Positions 38,840 through 47,416 of a stretch of DNA of 64,000 nt are shown here, one piece after another; position 1 is the stretch's first letter, and each line of letters starts with the position of its first letter. This DNA is from Hyunsoonleella ulvae (GTDB lineage: Bacteria; Bacteroidota; Bacteroidia; Flavobacteriales; Flavobacteriaceae). The position numbers were made by a program, and so were the translations under genes. A model generated the notes under the pieces. It was not told where the DNA came from and made no database searches. It saw only the letters and a list, made by a program, of their open reading frames with translations. Where the stretch lies: the NCBI RefSeq assembly GCF_016827605.1, contig NZ_JAEPJQ010000001.1:1178001-1242000 (forward strand). Reading direction: 5' to 3'.

Positions 38840-40288
38840 CTAATTATTCCAATGTGTAACAAGTTCTATAAACTCCTGTCTAAATCCATTAGGATCAAAG
38901 CTAGTAGCACCACTAGCCAAATCAATTACCATTTGTTTAGAAACGTTTCCTTTATATTCTGAATTCTTCATGAGTAAACCAAACCCTGTAACTGCAGTAG
39001 CAAAATTCATGTTTTCAGATATTATAGCGTTACTAGATTCCTTAATTTCGTGTGCTAAAGGGATGCTTATTTCAGTATTTGGTTTTTTATACCTAAAGTC
39101 AAATGTAGCATAAAGCGCTTCAGTATTATCTTTTAATACCACTTCATAAAGTGCTGTAATAGTTTGAGAAGAACCAATTTCGCCTGCATCCTCAGTGTCA
39201 TCTTCAAAATCTTCATTTTCTAAAGCTCTATTTTCATACCCAATTAAACGATAGGAAGAAACTTTATTTTCGTTAAAAGTTACTTGAATTTTAGAATCTT
39301 TTGCCACAGTATATAACTTTCCTAGTTCATAAGTAAAAACCTTTTGAATCTGTTTTGCATTATCTATATGCTCGTAATTACCATTACCTTTATTTGCAAT
39401 CTGCTCCATACCATAATCGTTTAGATTTCCGCCTCCAACACCAAGTACAGTTAGATAAATACCCGTTTTTCGTTTTTTTTCTATAAGTTCTACAAGTGCT
39501 TCAGTAGAGGATGGACCAACATTGAAATCGCCATCAGATCCTAAGATAACCCTATTGTTACCATCACTAATAAAATGTTCTTCTACTATTTTATAGGCGG
39601 TAATAATACCCTCAGCTCCTGCTGTGCTACCTCCAGCACCTAGTTGATCTATGGCTTGTTTTATTTTATCTTTTTCACTCCCAGATGTTGATGGCAATAA
39701 TACACCTGCACTCCCAGCGTAGGTAACAATAGCAATTCTATCATCATCCCTAAGATTATCTGTTAAAGTTTTAAATCCTGACTTTAAAATACCCAATTTA
39801 TCTGGAGAACTCATAGAACCAGAAACATCAATTAAAAAGACATAATTAGAATTTGGAAGTTCTGATTCTGGAATGGTTTTACCTTTCATACCTATGCGTA
39901 TCAAGTGATGATCTGTATTCCAAGGACAGATGGAAACTTCAGAATTCAAACCGACATTATCTCCATTTTGAGGTTCAGGATAATCAAATGTAAAATAGTT
40001 AATATACTCCTCAATTCTTACTGAAGCGACAGGTGGGGTTTGTCCTAAATTTAAAAAGCGTCTCATGTTGGCATAAGAACCGCCATCAGCATCAACCGAA
40101 AATGTAGACACAGGGGCTTCACTAGTTGAAATAAAGGGATTTTCTCCATGATCTTTATAATTTTCTTGAACTATTGGTTCGGGGTTATAAGCCGAAAGTT
40201 CATGCATAGATACCTTATCTAAAGGAGAACATGCAACAGTAATTATTAGTAAAGATAAAAAGGATGAGATTGCATAAAGGTTTTTCAT
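38840..40288 (-). CDS. von Willebrand factor A domain lipoprotein
   Basis: A 482-residue lipoprotein (TVAC, Cys20). An N-terminal von Willebrand-associated domain (FSVDADGGSYANMRRFLNLGQTPP, the 'YfbK' type) precedes a vWFA domain at about 148-315 with an intact MIDAS motif DVSGSMS (Asp154) and SDGDFNVG. A C-terminal domain follows (about 330-482). Related proteins in this phylum often carry an extra CarboxypepD_reg-like domain, which is absent here. Probably at the outer membrane, binding metal and protein ligands. A motif like the one before the ECF sigma operon lies upstream, at 40339-40364. Confidence 0.88.
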   Translation of the reverse strand: MKNLYAISSFLSLLIITVACSPLDKVSMHELSAYNPEPIVQENYKDHGENPFISTSEAPVSTFSVDADGGSYANMRRFLNLGQTPPVASVRIEEYINYFTFDYPEPQNGDNVGLNSEVSICPWNTDHHLIRIGMKGKTIPESELPNSNYVFLIDVSGSMSSPDKLGILKSGFKTLTDNLRDDDRIAIVTYAGSAGVLLPSTSGSEKDKIKQAIDQLGAGGSTAGAEGIITAYKIVEEHFISDGNNRVILGSDGDFNVGPSSTEALVELIEKKRKTGIYLTVLGVGGGNLNDYGMEQIANKGNGNYEHIDNAKQIQKVFTYELGKLYTVAKDSKIQVTFNENKVSSYRLIGYENRALENEDFEDDTEDAGEIGSSQTITALYEVVLKDNTEALYATFDFRYKKPNTEISIPLAHEIKESSNAIISENMNFATAVTGFGLLMKNSEYKGNVSKQMVIDLASGATSFDPNGFRQEFIELVTHWNN

Positions 40289-40338
40289 AGCGAGGGTGTT
40301 TTAAAGTTTAATAAAAGTGAATTGCAATATGTCTTTTA

Positions 40339-40364
40339 GATGTAGCATGTAAGAAATGGTTGCG
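40339..40364 (-). promoter_or_regulatory. Weak ECF-type promoter match for the vWFA gene
   Basis: On the minus strand CGCAACCATT is followed by 13 nt and ATC, against TGCAACCTTT-13-GTC at the two neighbouring sites: same spacing, 8/10 and 2/3 bases shared. It lies 50 bp before the start codon. Confidence 0.4.
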
Positions 40365-40432
40365 TTAATTGCTTAATGAATTTTTTGATTTAGAATACAT
40401 TAGACCGCATTTTAAAAAAAATCAAAAGACAA

Positions 40433-40458
40433 TGCAACCTTTCAATTTTTAATCTGTC
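40433..40458 (+). promoter_or_regulatory. ECF-type promoter before the TonB-receptor operon
   Basis: TGCAACCTTT (40433-40442), a 13-nt spacer and GTC (40456-40458), 70 bp before the receptor ATG. The same two blocks with identical spacing precede the ECF sigma-factor gene at 44495-44520. This is the layout expected of an ECF sigma -35/-10 promoter. Confidence 0.72.
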
Positions 40459-40528
40459 AATACCAATAGAATCAATCATCAATCAAACTAAGCTGAAATA
40501 GTTCAGCATTATAAAACGAACAGATCAA

Positions 40529-42904
40529 ATGAAAATTATGTTACTAGGGTTATGCCTGTTTCTAGGCATGACGGCAACTGCACAAGACACGTTTAGTATT
40601 CGTGGTACAGTTAAAGATGCCAAAAATGGAGAAACAATATTAGGAGCTACCGTTTTTTTTAAAGGCACCACAAATGGAGCCGTTACCAACAGTTACGGCT
40701 TTTATTCACTTACAGCTTCAAAGGGTAATTATACGGTAGTAGTATCGTATATGGGTTATGAAGAGATTTCAAAAGAAATTAACCTTAACCAAGATCAAGT
40801 TCTAGATTTTGAACTTACGGAAGCAACGCATCAATTAGATGAAGTTGTCGTTACAGCCGAAGAACCAGAGCGCATTAGTATTAAGAAACCACAAATGAGT
40901 GTTTCAAAACTCAATGCTTCTACCATTAAACAAATACCCGCAGTATTGGGAGAGGTAGATGTGATTAAATCCATTCAAATGTTACCAGGTGTTACAAATT
41001 CTGGAGAAGGCACTGCGGGCTTTAATGTAAGAGGAGGGGCTGCAGACCAAAATTTGGTATTACTTGATGAAGCCATTATTTATAACACATCTCATTTTTT
41101 TGGCTTCTTTTCAGTGTTTAACAATGATGCAATAAAAAATGTAAAGCTTTACAAAGGAGACATTCCTGCAAAGTTTGGAGGACGAGTATCTTCAGTTTTA
41201 GATGTACACCAAAAGGATGGTAATAGTAAACAGTTTGAACTCAATGGAGGCATAGGTTTAATTTCAAGTAGGCTAACTGCTGAAGCACCGCTGTTTGGAG
41301 ATAAAGGGTCTTTTTTAATCGCAGGTAGAAGCTCTTATGCCCATTTACTTATGAAAGCCATCCCGGAAGTAAAAGATGATAAAATATCCTTTTACGATCT
41401 AAACTTAAAAACGAATTACACAATAAATAAAAACAACAGGCTATTCCTCTCAGGGTATTTTGGAAGAGATGTTTTCGATTTATCTAATATTATTAGAACT
41501 AACTATGGAAATGCCTCTGGAAATTTAAGATGGAATCATGTATTTAACGATAAGCTGTTTTCCAATTTATCCTTAATATATAGCAAGTACGATTACCGTA
41601 TTATACTTGATTTTGTGGAGTTGGATTGGATTGCAGACATTAAAAACTATAATATTAAATACGATTTTGGGTACTATCTCAATGATAAAGTAAAGGTAGA
41701 TTTTGGTGTTAGTACCATTCTTCACAATTTAAATCCTGGAGAAGTAAAACCAACAACAGAAAGCTCTCCTGTAAACCAATTAAAGTTAGAACAAAAGCGA
41801 GCTTTAGAAAATGGTATTTATGCCAGTGCAGAACATCAAATTTCAGATAAACTTACTTTAAATTACGGACTACGCTACAGTAGGTTTAATAGACTTGGCG
41901 GACAAAATATTATGAATTATGCAAATAATAAACCCGTTGTATATAATGAAACATTAGGCATTTACGAAGAAGGAGAAGAAACAGGCGAAACTTTTTTTAA
42001 GAAAAGCGAAAGTATAAAAACCTATGATAATTTTGAGCCTCGTTTGGGAATGTCCTATCAATTAAATACATCTTCTTCCGTAAAAGCAAGCTATACAAGA
42101 TCAACCCAATATATGCATTTACTATCCAATACCACTGCTGTAACACCGCTAGATGTATGGACGCCAAGTGGAAGATATATTAAACCCCAAAAATCACATC
42201 AATATGCAGCAGGGTATTACAAAAACCTAAAAGACAACATCTTCTCTTTAGAAGTAGAAGCGTATTACAAGACTGTAGACAATAGAATTGATTATGTAGA
42301 CGGTTCAGATTTAATAGGGACTAATACCATTGAAACTGAAATTTTAAATGGCGAAGCCAGAGCCTATGGTTTAGAATTTTTATTGAGAAAAAATAAAGGA
42401 CGCTTTACGGGATGGTTGGCCTACACTTTATCAAAATCAGAACAAAGAACACCAGGAGGGATTGCTGGTGGGTTAGGTATTAACGATGGCAAATGGTACA
42501 ATACCCCTTTTGATAGAACTCATGATGTATCGATAACAGGAGCATATAAACTAAATGACCGATGGAAATTTAGTGCTAATGCGGTTTACCAAACAGGACG
42601 ACCTGTGACATATCCAGATGGACAGTACACTTATGAAGGTTTATCTATAGCTAGTTTTTCAGATAGAAATGCCAGCAGATTACCAGCATATCATCGCTTA
42701 GATATATCAGCAATTTATAGTCCGAAAAAGAATTTGAATAGAAAATGGAAAGGTGAGTGGGTGTTTGGTATCTACAATGCCTATAACCGTAAAAATGCAG
42801 CCTCAATCAGGTTTGTTCAAAATGATGACACAGCAGCAAATGAAGCAACACGAACAGCTATTTTCGGTATTATACCATCGATAACATATAACTTCAAATT
42901 TTAA
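40529..42904 (+). CDS. TonB-dependent outer-membrane receptor
   Basis: A 791-residue outer-membrane receptor with signal peptide (LGLCLFLGMTATAQ), a CarboxypepD_reg-like domain at about 24-105 (TVKDAKNGETILGATVFFKGTTNGAVTNSYGFYSL), a plug domain (PQMSVSKLNASTIKQIPAVLGEVDVIKSIQMLPGVTNSGEGTAGFNVRGGAADQNLVLLDEA) and a long beta-barrel ending in TYNFKF. It is not the SusC type (no SusD partner follows). The next gene is a DUF4249 lipoprotein, the common partner of such receptors in Flavobacteriaceae. Substrate unknown. Confidence 0.92.
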   Translation: MKIMLLGLCLFLGMTATAQDTFSIRGTVKDAKNGETILGATVFFKGTTNGAVTNSYGFYSLTASKGNYTVVVSYMGYEEISKEINLNQDQVLDFELTEATHQLDEVVVTAEEPERISIKKPQMSVSKLNASTIKQIPAVLGEVDVIKSIQMLPGVTNSGEGTAGFNVRGGAADQNLVLLDEAIIYNTSHFFGFFSVFNNDAIKNVKLYKGDIPAKFGGRVSSVLDVHQKDGNSKQFELNGGIGLISSRLTAEAPLFGDKGSFLIAGRSSYAHLLMKAIPEVKDDKISFYDLNLKTNYTINKNNRLFLSGYFGRDVFDLSNIIRTNYGNASGNLRWNHVFNDKLFSNLSLIYSKYDYRIILDFVELDWIADIKNYNIKYDFGYYLNDKVKVDFGVSTILHNLNPGEVKPTTESSPVNQLKLEQKRALENGIYASAEHQISDKLTLNYGLRYSRFNRLGGQNIMNYANNKPVVYNETLGIYEEGEETGETFFKKSESIKTYDNFEPRLGMSYQLNTSSSVKASYTRSTQYMHLLSNTTAVTPLDVWTPSGRYIKPQKSHQYAAGYYKNLKDNIFSLEVEAYYKTVDNRIDYVDGSDLIGTNTIETEILNGEARAYGLEFLLRKNKGRFTGWLAYTLSKSEQRTPGGIAGGLGINDGKWYNTPFDRTHDVSITGAYKLNDRWKFSANAVYQTGRPVTYPDGQYTYEGLSIASFSDRNASRLPAYHRLDISAIYSPKKNLNRKWKGEWVFGIYNAYNRKNAASIRFVQNDDTAANEATRTAIFGIIPSITYNFKF

Positions 42905-42941
42905 TCTTGAATACCCTTATGGGTACTAAAAACAAACAAAT

Positions 42942-43787
42942 ATGAAACCATATATAAAAATACTTTCAATATTATTTTTAATAGGATATACATCCTGTGA
43001 AGATGTGATTGATGTGGACGTTCCAACAGCTGCTCCAAGACTAGTTATTGAAGCTTCCTTAGATTGGCAAAAAGGCACAACAGGTAACAACCAAATCATA
43101 AAGTTAAGTACATCTACCCCTTATTTTGAGAACACTGTAAACTCAGCAGTTACGGGAGCTTCAGTAAAAGTAACAAATAACAATAATAATATTGAGTATA
43201 CTTTTGAGGACCAGAATAATGGCACGTACACCATCTCTAACTTTGTTCCCGTAATAAATGACAGTTACACCTTAGAAATTACATACAATAATGAAACCTA
43301 TCGTGCTACAGAAACCTTAAAATCGGTATCGCCAATAAAACGCGTAGAGCAATCCGTAGAAGGTGGCTTTGATGATGAAGTTTTGGATGTTTCCATTTTT
43401 TGGGATGACCCAGTCGATGAGGAGAATTTCTATCTCATAAAATTTATGGAAGAAGGTATTTTTTTTCCAATTTTTGAGGACTATCCAGATGAATTTGTAA
43501 ACGGTAATGAACTCAATACTTTTTTTGAAAAAGACAGAGAAGATGATGATGACCAAGCTGAATTTAATCCTGGAGATACAGTTAAATTCACCCTATATGG
43601 TATCTCAAAGCAGTATGATAATTATATAAGCCTGTTAATAGAGCAGTATGATAGCGCAGGAGATCCGTTTAGTACTATTCCAGCAAAGCTAAAAGGTAAT
43701 TGTATTAACGTAAGCACACCAGAAAATTATCCTTTAGGCTATTTTAGGTTGTCTGAGTTTGATACCGTAACCTATACTTTTCAATAA
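42942..43787 (+). CDS. DUF4249 family lipoprotein
   Basis: A 281-residue lipoprotein (TSC, Cys19 of the leader) with the DUF4249 opening EDVIDVDVPTAAPRLVIEASLDW and the NGTYTISNFVPVINDSYTLEITYNNETYRATETL block. These are conserved partners of TonB-dependent receptors in Bacteroidota; the role is unknown but the protein is probably surface-exposed or periplasmic. It lies 37 bp after the receptor and 19 bp before a GIN-domain gene. Confidence 0.88.
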   Translation: MKPYIKILSILFLIGYTSCEDVIDVDVPTAAPRLVIEASLDWQKGTTGNNQIIKLSTSTPYFENTVNSAVTGASVKVTNNNNNIEYTFEDQNNGTYTISNFVPVINDSYTLEITYNNETYRATETLKSVSPIKRVEQSVEGGFDDEVLDVSIFWDDPVDEENFYLIKFMEEGIFFPIFEDYPDEFVNGNELNTFFEKDREDDDDQAEFNPGDTVKFTLYGISKQYDNYISLLIEQYDSAGDPFSTIPAKLKGNCINVSTPENYPLGYFRLSEFDTVTYTFQ

Positions 43788-43806
43788 CAATTAAAAACAT
43801 AATATC

Positions 43807-44460
43807 ATGAAAACACAGTATATATTTTATCTGCTTTTAGCCTTTTGTATGGGGTTAACCTCATGCTCAGTAGATAGTATAAAGGCGTCTGACACTATCG
43901 TATCAGAAGAACGCATGGTTTCAAATTTTAATGAAGTTGACGTTTCAAGTGATATAGAAGTAGTTATAAAATACGGCACACAACAATCTGTTAAGATAAC
44001 CACAAGCGATAATATCATAAAAAATGTAACTACAAGCGTAAGTAACGGTAGACTAGTTGCAAGATTATCTGGCAATATTAGGCGGTTAACAGAGTTAAAA
44101 TTAGAAATAACCATTCCAACCATTTCAAGATTAATACTATCAGCCGATAGCTTTGGAAGCTGTACTGGATTTGAAAACTTAGAAACGTTCCAACTGAATG
44201 TTTCCAGTGATGCTTTTATTGTGCTTTCAGGCTCAGCAAATAGTATGAATATAGATGCCAGTAGTGATGCCAAGGTAGAAGGGTTCGATTTTGAAACTAA
44301 AACATGTAATATAAATTGTTCTTCAGATGCTACAGTTTCTATAACTTGTACTGATGCTTTATCAGGTTCTGTAAGTAGCGATGGCATAATATTTTATAAA
44401 GGAAATCCAACGGTAAATGTATCTACAAGCAGCGATGGCGCAGTAATAAATTCAAATTAG
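43807..44460 (+). CDS. Head-GIN domain (DUF2807) lipoprotein
   Basis: A 217-residue lipoprotein (LTSC, about Cys20) with a right-handed beta-solenoid pattern: FNEVDVSSDIEVVIKYGTQQSVKITTSDNIIKNVTTSVSNGRLVARL, followed by repeated SSD motifs (SSDAFIVLSG, SSDAKVEGFD, SSDATVSIT, SSDGIIF). This is the putative auto-transporter adhesin head-GIN family (DUF2807). It ends the TonB-receptor operon, 34 bp before the ECF promoter of the next operon. Confidence 0.85.
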   Translation: MKTQYIFYLLLAFCMGLTSCSVDSIKASDTIVSEERMVSNFNEVDVSSDIEVVIKYGTQQSVKITTSDNIIKNVTTSVSNGRLVARLSGNIRRLTELKLEITIPTISRLILSADSFGSCTGFENLETFQLNVSSDAFIVLSGSANSMNIDASSDAKVEGFDFETKTCNINCSSDATVSITCTDALSGSVSSDGIIFYKGNPTVNVSTSSDGAVINSN

Positions 44461-44494
44461 AAAGATGCTGATATTAAATAAATTGTAACTTTCA

Positions 44495-44520
44495 TGCAAC
44501 CTTTAAAAATTTCTATTGTC
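44495..44520 (+). promoter_or_regulatory. ECF-type autoregulatory promoter
   Basis: TGCAACCTTT (44495-44504), 13 nt, GTC (44518-44520), 48 bp before the sigma-factor start. The exact core and spacing are shared with 40433-40458. ECF sigma factors commonly transcribe their own operon from such a promoter. Confidence 0.75.
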
Positions 44521-44568
44521 TTTAAAAATAGAAACTAAATCCAAAACCGATTTCACAACCAAAACGCG

Positions 44569-45111
44569 GTGACAAACCAAGTAGTTTTTACACATAAAGA
44601 GCTTGTAGAGAAGAGCAAATTGGGCGACCGAAAAACGCAATACAAATTGTATTCGCTTTACGTTAATGCTATGTTTAATGTGTGTGTAAGAATGGTAAAA
44701 TCTAAAGAAGATGCCGAAGATATTTTACAAGAGAGTTTTGTTGAGGCATTTAAAAACCTAAACAGTTTTAGATACGAAAGCACCTTTGGTTCTTGGTTAA
44801 AGCGTATTGTGATAAACAAAAGCATCAATCATTTAAAATTAAAACGCGTGCCTTTGGTGGCCATGGATGATTATGATAATTGGATTCCAGAACAACAAGA
44901 AGATGAAGATATTAAAGAAGAACAACTTAATGTAGATACCATAAAAATAGCAATAAAGCAGCTCCCAGAGGGCTACCAGACCATAATCAATTTGTATTTA
45001 ATTGAAGGATACGATCACGTTGAGATAGGAGAAATTTTAGGCATAAGCACCTCAACTTCCAAATCCCAATATCACAGAGCAAAAAAGAAACTAATAGCAT
45101 TAATGCATTGA
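44569..45111 (+). CDS. ECF-type RNA polymerase sigma factor
   Basis: A 180-residue sigma-70 family factor, ECF class. Region 2 contains NVCVRMVKSKEDAEDILQESFVEAFKNLNSFRYESTFGSWLKRIVINKSINHL, and region 4 contains LPEGYQTIINLYLIEGYDHVEIGEILGISTSTSKSQYHRAKKKL. Start is a GTG at 44569. It is 6 bp before the presumed anti-sigma gene and has its own ECF-type promoter. Confidence 0.93.
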   Translation: MTNQVVFTHKELVEKSKLGDRKTQYKLYSLYVNAMFNVCVRMVKSKEDAEDILQESFVEAFKNLNSFRYESTFGSWLKRIVINKSINHLKLKRVPLVAMDDYDNWIPEQQEDEDIKEEQLNVDTIKIAIKQLPEGYQTIINLYLIEGYDHVEIGEILGISTSTSKSQYHRAKKKLIALMH

Positions 45112-45117
45112 AAGCCA

Positions 45118-45660
45118 ATGGACAATTTAAAAAAATACACCAGTAAGCACCAGGCTAAATTTGATGATTTCGATTTAGACGAAGTAGACAAACTAAGGCT
45201 TTGGGGCGATATTGTTTCAGAACTACCAGAAAAGCCAGTTAAGGTTATTCCGTTATGGAAAACAACACCATTTAGAGTGGCGGCTAGCATTATACTATTG
45301 GTTGGTTGTACGTTCTTTTTCTTGCTATCTGGTGGGCAAGATCCAGAACAACAAATTGTGAATCAAGAACTACAGGATATTGATAGCCACTATCAACTAC
45401 TGGTAAATAATCAAGTAGAATTAATTAAGAATAGTTTGCATTTATCAAGAGAAGACCAAGAAGATTTCTTGTTGTTAATAGACGATTTAGATGCAGAATA
45501 CAACAAATTAAAAGGGGAGCTAAAATTAGGCATCAACAATGAAAAAATTATTGAAGCTATAATTAGTAATTACAGAAAGAAGATTAAACTCATGGAGGAT
45601 TTATTAGAACGATCATATCCAGTTAAAACCGATTTTGAAGATGAAGCAATTACATTATAA
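45118..45660 (+). CDS. Putative membrane-bound anti-sigma factor
   Basis: A 180-residue protein with a cytoplasmic N-terminus (LKKYTSKHQAKFDDFDLDEVDKLRLWGDIV), one membrane segment (VAASIILLVGCTFFFLLSG, about residues 59-77) and an extracytoplasmic helical part. No clear zinc motif or family match, but the topology and the place directly after the ECF sigma gene, 6 bp away, point to an anti-sigma factor. Its last 20 bp overlap the next gene. Inference from context. Confidence 0.7.
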   Translation: MDNLKKYTSKHQAKFDDFDLDEVDKLRLWGDIVSELPEKPVKVIPLWKTTPFRVAASIILLVGCTFFFLLSGGQDPEQQIVNQELQDIDSHYQLLVNNQVELIKNSLHLSREDQEDFLLLIDDLDAEYNKLKGELKLGINNEKIIEAIISNYRKKIKLMEDLLERSYPVKTDFEDEAITL

Positions 45661-46729
45661 AATATCATTTTTTCTTGCCATCATGCTGTTTTCAAGTATG
45701 GTATATGGGCAAGACAAATTAAGTAAGGAGATTAAAAAAACGGTTCCACTTACAAATGATGGGGCTTTATACCTAGAAAATAAATACGGCAATGTATTCA
45801 TTAATGGTTGGGATAAAGATTCTATTAAGTTTGAAATTTCAGTAGAAGTAAAAGGAAAGAATTTAGAAAAAGCAAAAGACCTTTTAAAGCGCATTAATCC
45901 CGATTTTATAACCACAACATCACAAGTGGTTGTAAAAACCGAGATCACAGAAAAAAACGCGTCATTCTTCAATAAGTACATTAAAAAAATAGGACCGTTA
46001 AATAGTGAAAAAGCAAACTCAGACATCAATTATAGTATTTACCTACCTAGGAAAGCAGCCATAGAGGTATACAATAAGTATGGCGATATTATAATTTCAG
46101 ATTGGGATGGTAAATTAATAGCCGATGTAGAGCATGGCGATTTAAGGATAACGGATGATGTGTTAGAGTCAAAACTATCAGTAAAATACGGAAAACTAAG
46201 AGCGAATACGTTAACTAAAACAAATATTACAGCAAAAGATGCAACCATTTCTTTTGAAAAATCTGAAACCTTAAAATTAGATGCCGATGGCGCAACAATA
46301 AGTTTGGTAGAAGTTGGAACATTAGACATTAATTCCAATAAAGATGATATCGAAATTAATAATGTAAATACTATTCACGGTACTATAAAGTATTCGCAAG
46401 TAACACTAACGAATATATGGTCTAAAGTGAATTTAAGCTTAAATCTTGCAGAGTTGCGTTTAAAGAAATTTGGCATCAATGCACCTGTTGTAAATTTGCA
46501 TCAAAAATCATCAGAAGTATATGTAAATATCTCTAAAACTAATTTTAATTTTAGTGCAGAATTGGAGCAAGGCGTACTTAGAATACCTAAAACAATGAAA
46601 GACATTAATAGCAAGGTATTGGATGAAAAAAATAAGATAAGACAAATAAGAGCCACTTACGGCGATGGTAATCAAGGTATTTTTGACCTCACTGGGTATA
46701 AAGGCATTATCATATTTAAAGAACTTTAA
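45641..46729 (+). CDS. Secreted GIN/DUF4097-like beta-solenoid protein
   Basis: A 362-residue protein with signal peptide (SFFLAIMLFSSMVYGQ). The mature part has beta-solenoid-like repeats: YLENKYGNVFINGWDKDSIKFEISVEVKG, YNKYGDIIISDWDGKLIADVEHGDLRITDD, and YGKLRANTLTKTNITAKDATISFE. The pattern resembles DUF4097/DUF2807 adhesin-like proteins. I start at ATG 45641; the in-frame TTG 45635 is unlikely. It overlaps the anti-sigma gene by 20 bp, so the genes are one operon. Role unknown, possibly a surface protein made by the sigma system. Confidence 0.75.
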   Translation: MKQLHYKISFFLAIMLFSSMVYGQDKLSKEIKKTVPLTNDGALYLENKYGNVFINGWDKDSIKFEISVEVKGKNLEKAKDLLKRINPDFITTTSQVVVKTEITEKNASFFNKYIKKIGPLNSEKANSDINYSIYLPRKAAIEVYNKYGDIIISDWDGKLIADVEHGDLRITDDVLESKLSVKYGKLRANTLTKTNITAKDATISFEKSETLKLDADGATISLVEVGTLDINSNKDDIEINNVNTIHGTIKYSQVTLTNIWSKVNLSLNLAELRLKKFGINAPVVNLHQKSSEVYVNISKTNFNFSAELEQGVLRIPKTMKDINSKVLDEKNKIRQIRATYGDGNQGIFDLTGYKGIIIFKEL

Positions 46730-46744
46730 AAATCAATCAAAACA

Positions 46745-47416
46745 ATGAACAGGATAATTACAATACTATTTGTTTTAATAACGACATATTCCAGTTTCGC
46801 ACAAAAAAAAGAATCTAACGAATATGTAGAATTCGACGATAGAAAAAATGTGGTACACGGTGTGTATTTGGGTTTTAATGTCCATTATGCACAATTAGAT
46901 ACTAGAGGCGAAAAAGAAACAGCGTTTGTAAATTTAAAATTGGCTTATGTCGCCAATCAAAAAATGGAAGTAGGCATAGGGATTACAGGTTTTTTTAATG
47001 AAAGACCTAATGATAGGCCAGATTTGTTTAACGGCGATAAAGTAGCACTTTTAGGAGGGTATGTAGGTTTGCATCTAGAACCCATTTTGTTTGGTAAACG
47101 TTTTATAAGTGTCTCTTTTCCAGTGTTAGTTGGTGGTGGAGCGGTAGGCTATTTTGGCAATAGTTTTACAGATGAATACGAAGATATTAAAGAAGAAGAT
47201 TTTGATGAGTTTTTTATTGTAGAGCCAGGCATCAATATTCTCTATAACTTTTCAAGGTTTACGCAATTAGAAACAGGAATACGCTACAGATTTACAAGCG
47301 ATTATAATTTACCACCTTATGATAGTGGAAACCTTAACGGATTTTCTGTTGGAGTAGGACTAAAACTAGGCATCTTTAATATGGGGAGAAAAAAGAAGGT
47401 AAAAGATAATTTTTAG
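46745..47416 (+). CDS. Outer-membrane beta-barrel protein of the sigma operon
   Basis: A 223-residue protein with signal peptide (RIITILFVLITTYSSFAQ). The strand pattern (GVYLGFNVHYAQLDTRGEKETAFVNLKLAYV, LLGGYVGLHLEPILFGKRFISVSFPVLVGGG, QLETGIRYRF) is that of a small outer-membrane barrel. It starts 15 bp after the solenoid gene and ends the operon; its stop overlaps the stop of convergent holB. Probably outer membrane, role unknown. Confidence 0.72.
   Translation: MNRIITILFVLITTYSSFAQKKESNEYVEFDDRKNVVHGVYLGFNVHYAQLDTRGEKETAFVNLKLAYVANQKMEVGIGITGFFNERPNDRPDLFNGDKVALLGGYVGLHLEPILFGKRFISVSFPVLVGGGAVGYFGNSFTDEYEDIKEEDFDEFFIVEPGINILYNFSRFTQLETGIRYRFTSDYNLPPYDSGNLNGFSVGVGLKLGIFNMGRKKKVKDNF

Follow-up and report, generated by a model that had tools for sequence, protein, structure and literature searches.

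A probable ECF sigma promoter shared by a sigma-factor operon and a TonB-dependent receptor operon in Hyunsoonleella ulvae and related flavobacteria

The locus lies in the window, which is the whole stretch of 64,000 nt of Hyunsoonleella ulvae DNA that was analyzed. A TonB-dependent receptor of 791 aa with an N-terminal CarboxypepD_reg_2 domain is encoded on the plus strand at 40529–42904 (Pfam PF00593, PF13715, and PF07715). It is followed on the same strand, after a gap of 37 nt, by a gene for a DUF4249 protein (42942–43787, 281 aa, PF14054) and, after 19 nt, by a gene for a head-GIN (DUF2807) protein (43807–44460, 217 aa, PF10988), both probably in the receptor operon. The next plus-strand gene, at 44569–45111, has a GTG start and encodes a protein of 180 aa in which Pfam (Sigma70_r2 and Sigma70_r4_2), TIGR02937, and solved ECF sigma relatives revealed regions 2 and 4 only, as in a plain ECF factor. 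Three further plus-strand genes encode a membrane protein (45118–45660), a secreted DUF4097-like beta-solenoid protein of 362 aa (45641–46729), and an outer-membrane barrel-like protein of 223 aa (46745–47416), which would be the last member of the sigma operon. The model of the solenoid protein (pLDDT 86.6) resembles solved putative adhesins in its fold, and the Pfam family DUF4097 was detected in 1 of 25 of its homologues. The barrel-like protein gave only sub-threshold matches, to OMP_b-brl and PorT/SprT.

The model of the membrane protein encoded after the sigma factor, which is of modest confidence (pLDDT 71, pTM 0.42), shows a short N-terminus, a single membrane helix, and three long helices. 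Its position after the sigma gene and its topology make it a candidate anti-sigma factor. No recurring Pfam family and no known anti-sigma family was matched, a fold search gave no match at an E value of 0.001 or better, and a profile search of solved structures gave nothing convincing.

On the other side of the receptor gene, a divergent vWA-domain protein is encoded on the minus strand (38840–40288), and no copy of the motif described below was found for this gene. In six of six congeners without the sigma gene, holB was found beside a 172-aa gene, a methyltransferase-like gene, and mnmG. In each of them the segment that runs from the vWA gene through the barrel gene in the window (38840–47416) was absent between holB and the 172-aa gene.

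Exactly two matches to TGCAACCTTT-N13-GTC were found in the window, both on the plus strand. One (40433–40458) ends 70 nt before the receptor ATG at 40529 and the other (44495–44520) ends 48 nt before the GTG at 44569 that starts the sigma gene, in agreement with the positions and distances given in the initial annotation of this DNA. Dinucleotide shuffles of the window contained a mean of 0.01 matches, and two matches were reached in 0 of 100 shuffles, which bears out the earlier statement that identical blocks at identical spacing are unlikely by chance. Across the entire genome of 4,059,856 bases (23 contigs), three exact matches were found, compared with none in the reversed control and 0.08 predicted from base composition. 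All three stand before a gene, an outcome far from the hundreds of matches unlinked to gene starts that would have spoken against a promoter. When two mismatches were allowed, the genome yielded 86 matches and the control 81; such matches are therefore background, and further targets cannot be named in that way.

The search for sigma orthologues covered 120 genomes of the family, with a single genome for each genus. They were present in 14 of the 120 genera, our own included, at 57–100% identity (the next best match had 49%), and in 6 of 12 genomes within the genus. TGCAAC-N17-GTC was located before the sigma gene in 19 of 19 orthologues, 64–106 nt before the first aligned residue. A profile of these 19 sigma proteins retrieved 327 relatives in named genomes, and the best 80 of the 327 were kept, 11 of which repeat the 19-orthologue set. 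These 80 loci belong mostly to flavobacterial genera (Hyunsoonleella, Kordia, Aquimarina, Maribacter, Zobellia, Arenibacter, Flagellimonas, and others). Matches to the membrane protein and the solenoid protein were present in 80 of 80 and to the barrel protein in 79 of 80. A site with spacing 17 preceded the sigma gene in 75 of these loci, a site with spacing 18 in three, and an AGCAAC variant in one (L307), and one locus had none (L281); the corresponding numbers for the 69 loci left after removal of the repeats were 64, 3, 1, and 1. Counted on both strands of the best 80 of 327 loci, TGCAAC/TGTC occurred 156 times at spacing 17 and 0–5 times at each other spacing from 10 to 24.

The consensus of 152 distinct sites from these best 80 loci was A-TGCAAC-C-Y-T-T, a T-rich spacer, and TTGTC-T-W-T-A, in which the invariance of TGCAAC and TGTC is a result of the way the sites were selected. 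The spacer varied across species while both elements stayed. The blocks proposed in the initial annotation thus stood with respect to TGCAAC, GTC, and the exact spacing, but CTTT was kept only partly among the sites, and the conserved core is better given as TGCAACC, 17 nt between TGCAAC and GTC, and TTGTCTWTA. An AAC element and a GTC element at fixed spacing are a mark of ECF promoters. The core is best read, on sequence grounds, as an ECF-sigma promoter.

We examined which genes carry the site. In the best 80 of 327 loci, 152 of the 156 spacing-17 sites were directly before a sigma gene (76), a TonB receptor gene (31), or a barrel gene (45), at distances of 23–230 nt from the gene start, and three of the other four were about 575–655 nt before an Arenibacter receptor. 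Among linked receptors of these loci with at least 60% identity and enough upstream DNA, 34 of 41 had a site within 400 nt; four Aquimarina receptors of at least 60% identity had none. A separate site for the barrel gene was present in 47 of 55 loci in which the gap to the preceding solenoid gene was at least 60 nt, but in 0 of 24 in which the gap was shorter (best 80 of 327). In the window this gap is 15 nt, and no separate site is present there. Receptors unlinked to the sigma gene still had the site in five genomes (G028, G029, G030, G043, and G119). Together with its retention before the sigma gene at exact spacing, this agrees with the initial proposal of an ECF-type promoter shared by the two operons. 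The receptor of sigma-bearing G032 lacked the site. The site was found in 0 of 6 second receptors of sigma-bearing congeners and in 0 of 19 more distant receptors, some of which are second receptors of sigma-bearing genomes, indicating that the receptor family as such is not marked by it.

A stricter pattern, TGCAACC-N15-TGTC-NN-T, was counted in genera with and without the sigma orthologue. In the 14 sigma-bearing genera 37 strict sites stood against 2 in the control, and in the 106 genera lacking an orthologue 22 stood against 21; refinement of the pattern on some of the counted sites favors the former figure but not the background level in the latter. An excess over the control was thus seen only in sigma-bearing genera. 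One of the 22 sites in the other genera precedes a sigma gene whose product has 45% identity (G088). Outside the sigma, receptor, and barrel genes, sigma-bearing genera had 6 strict sites compared to 2.9 expected (P 0.07), suggesting that the regulon is small.

A similar tie was observed for receptors. We compared 46 receptors, namely the best 30 of one listing and 16 of the 17 rows that were new or repeated in a second, one wrongly extracted receptor having been dropped. With AGCAAC and spacing 18 also counted, 17 of 24 receptors in sigma-bearing genomes had a site, whereas 0 of 22 in sigma-less genomes did. The seven site-less receptors of sigma-bearing genomes were that of G032 and six second paralogues of congeners. 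On the receptor tree the site trait changes only three times (independent pairs 3 for and 0 against, p 0.25), so this test cannot reach significance. The presence of the receptor was also considered as a clean natural experiment; this was weakened because sigma-bearing congeners have two receptor paralogues and sigma-less congeners show only matches of the motif-less kind or more distant ones.

At some homologous receptors another element, TTCACTCC direct repeats, was observed (L163, 478–1480; L165, 472–1495; L141 and L218, upstream of 1501; L250, 2421–2531). The receptor lies behind these repeats in sigma-less G040, G026, and G095, and in sigma-bearing G032, which has no ECF site at this gene. 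A membrane LytTR gene adjoins the receptor in G032 and G128, and the receptors of G010 and G028 have both the TTCACTCC repeats and the ECF site. These observations suggest that regulators have been exchanged at one receptor promoter.

The third exact site in the genome (C17:361651–361676, minus strand) is located about 92 nt before the gene of a 148-aa secreted protein that is unlinked to the locus. Its assignment as the promoter of a CarboxypepD-domain gene was rejected, since its minus-strand orientation shows that the 148-aa gene is the one it serves. NCBIfam and Pfam searches placed the 148-aa protein in no family. All five sigma-bearing genomes of the genus in which the gene occurs, our own included, had an intact site; G010, a sigma-bearing congener, gave no match to the gene. 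Among the three sigma-less congeners with the gene, the site was decayed in G004 and G006 and intact in G003 (L072, 10000–10025), in which no sigma orthologue was found. The intact site of G003 would reflect either a recent loss of the sigma gene or another reader. By eye, a second element, AGTATTTTTATATTAGC, is kept before most copies of the 148-aa gene (L206–L213, upstream of 1501), also where the ECF site has decayed, and is possibly a housekeeping promoter.

Sequence comparison established the promoter code with its fixed spacing, the genes it targets, and its association with sigma-bearing genomes. We consider it highly probable that both sites in the window are promoters read by RNA polymerase with the ECF sigma encoded at 44569–45111. 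Related species keep the signal before the same few surface-protein genes, and the arrangement therefore has the appearance of a genuine autoregulatory switch of a known type. The comparison supports one small autoregulated regulon comprising the sigma factor, the anti-sigma candidate, the solenoid and barrel proteins, the receptor with the DUF4249 and head-GIN proteins, and the unlinked 148-aa protein. A single regulon had been suggested in the initial annotation. That suggestion held for the sigma and receptor operons under the comparative tests, and the barrel gene was found to have a copy of the site only where it is separated from the operon. The list of members was short of the 148-aa protein, and the DUF4249 and head-GIN proteins are probably members, as judged from their operon position only. 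In the proposed mechanism, the membrane protein would most likely keep the sigma factor inactive until an envelope signal releases it. The freed sigma factor would then transcribe its own operon, including the anti-sigma candidate, solenoid, and barrel genes, giving positive feedback plus more inhibitor, and in parallel would drive the receptor–DUF4249–head-GIN operon and the 148-aa gene.

A second cassette was observed on contig C18 of the same genome (L169, 4249–6912), with genes for a second sigma factor, a membrane protein like the one described above, and a secreted protein of larger size, the likeness being judged by eye. Here TGCAACA...CGTC is located about 235 nt before the first aligned sigma residue. 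The sites in the window might accordingly be ECF promoters read mainly or also by another ECF sigma, such as this paralogue, in an overlapping regulon. A recognizable site with the same spacing was indeed found at 15 of 16 paralogue loci, G003 keeps its site without a sigma orthologue, and the TGTC-type site of G088 accompanies a sigma factor of only 45% identity. However, the paralogue sites differ from those of the present group: TGTC is replaced by CGTC in 14 of the 15, and the base after TGCAAC, which is C or T in the present group, is A or G in most. Moreover, strict sites were at control level in the 106 genera without an orthologue, most of which have a paralogue-type match. We therefore regard reading by another sigma as improbable.

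Activator and repressor binding sites, too, can be conserved and common to several genes, but such a role is very improbable for an element of two parts at fixed spacing with AAC and GTC as generally known from ECF promoters, which lies 23–230 nt before gene starts in one orientation and has a matching variant before the paralogous sigma cassette. That the two copies, only 4 kb apart, are alike by chance or local duplication is hardly credible and is already contradicted by the conservation data, since their spacers and flanks differ, the shuffles argue against chance, and many species retain the elements with differing spacers.

Promoters read by the ECF sigma of this locus would define a compact, testable regulon in marine flavobacteria whose motif is precise enough for searches of any genome. 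The locus also offers a good natural record of regulon rewiring: within one genus the block is either there as a whole or lacking as a whole, promoter copies occur where the operon is interrupted, and some receptors combine an ECF site with LytTR-type sites. Head-GIN, DUF4097-like, and DUF4249 proteins, which have no assigned function, are thereby tied to one likely envelope-response switch. In a search of the open literature, outside which most subscription papers lie, no paper on the motif or the regulon was found.

Autoregulated operons of an ECF sigma factor and its anti-sigma factor are known from the RpoE and SigW type. The present locus is similar in that an ECF sigma gene is followed by the gene of a one-helix membrane protein, and an AAC/GTC promoter precedes its own operon and a few envelope genes. 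It differs in that the membrane protein fits no known anti-sigma family and in its targets, which are the solenoid, barrel, receptor, and DUF4249 proteins. In FecI/FecR/FecA and PUL-type ECF signaling, an ECF sigma factor, a membrane protein, and a TonB receptor are encoded in one neighborhood, as they are here. However, the receptor has CarboxypepD_reg domains and no STN domain at an E value of 0.001 or better in Pfam, and the membrane protein has no FecR family match, so the locus is not of the FecI/FecR/FecA type. The sigma factor scored 94.3 bits against TIGR02985 (Sig70_bacteroi1), below the curated cut-off of 126.4.

The motif proposed for P. gingivalis SigP, as given in the available part of that report, differs from TGCAAC-N17-GTC (PMC4800418). 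The SM6 promoters of F. psychrophilum, according to the accessible part of their description, are, like the promoters of this locus, a flavobacterial ECF class and include an ECF sigma/anti-sigma operon, but CGT stands in their −10 region and their targets are genes of type IX secretion (PMC9723704). On these partial data the SM6 class appears closer to the C18-type paralogue and may be read by a sigma factor of that type. In the Dma/Das systems of Bacteroides (ECF21), the portion of the source at hand describes an anti-sigma domain, a membrane helix, a tether, and a barrel in one protein (PMC13088901). As in that account, a Bacteroidota ECF sigma factor, a membrane-anchored inhibitor candidate, and a beta-barrel share one operon here (PMC13088901). 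In contrast to the Dma protein as outlined there, each of the membrane protein, solenoid, and barrel has a gene of its own in the window, where no single protein combines an anti-sigma domain, a membrane helix, and a C-terminal beta-barrel (PMC13088901). We tentatively propose, as one possibility suggested by this analogy, that the module is a split relative of Dma-type signaling, in which an outer-membrane barrel and a periplasmic beta-solenoid from separate genes might relay the surface state to an inner-membrane anti-sigma factor, and that the two paralogous cassettes might be insulated by codes differing mainly at two positions (TGCAACC/TGTC versus TGCAACA/CGTC).
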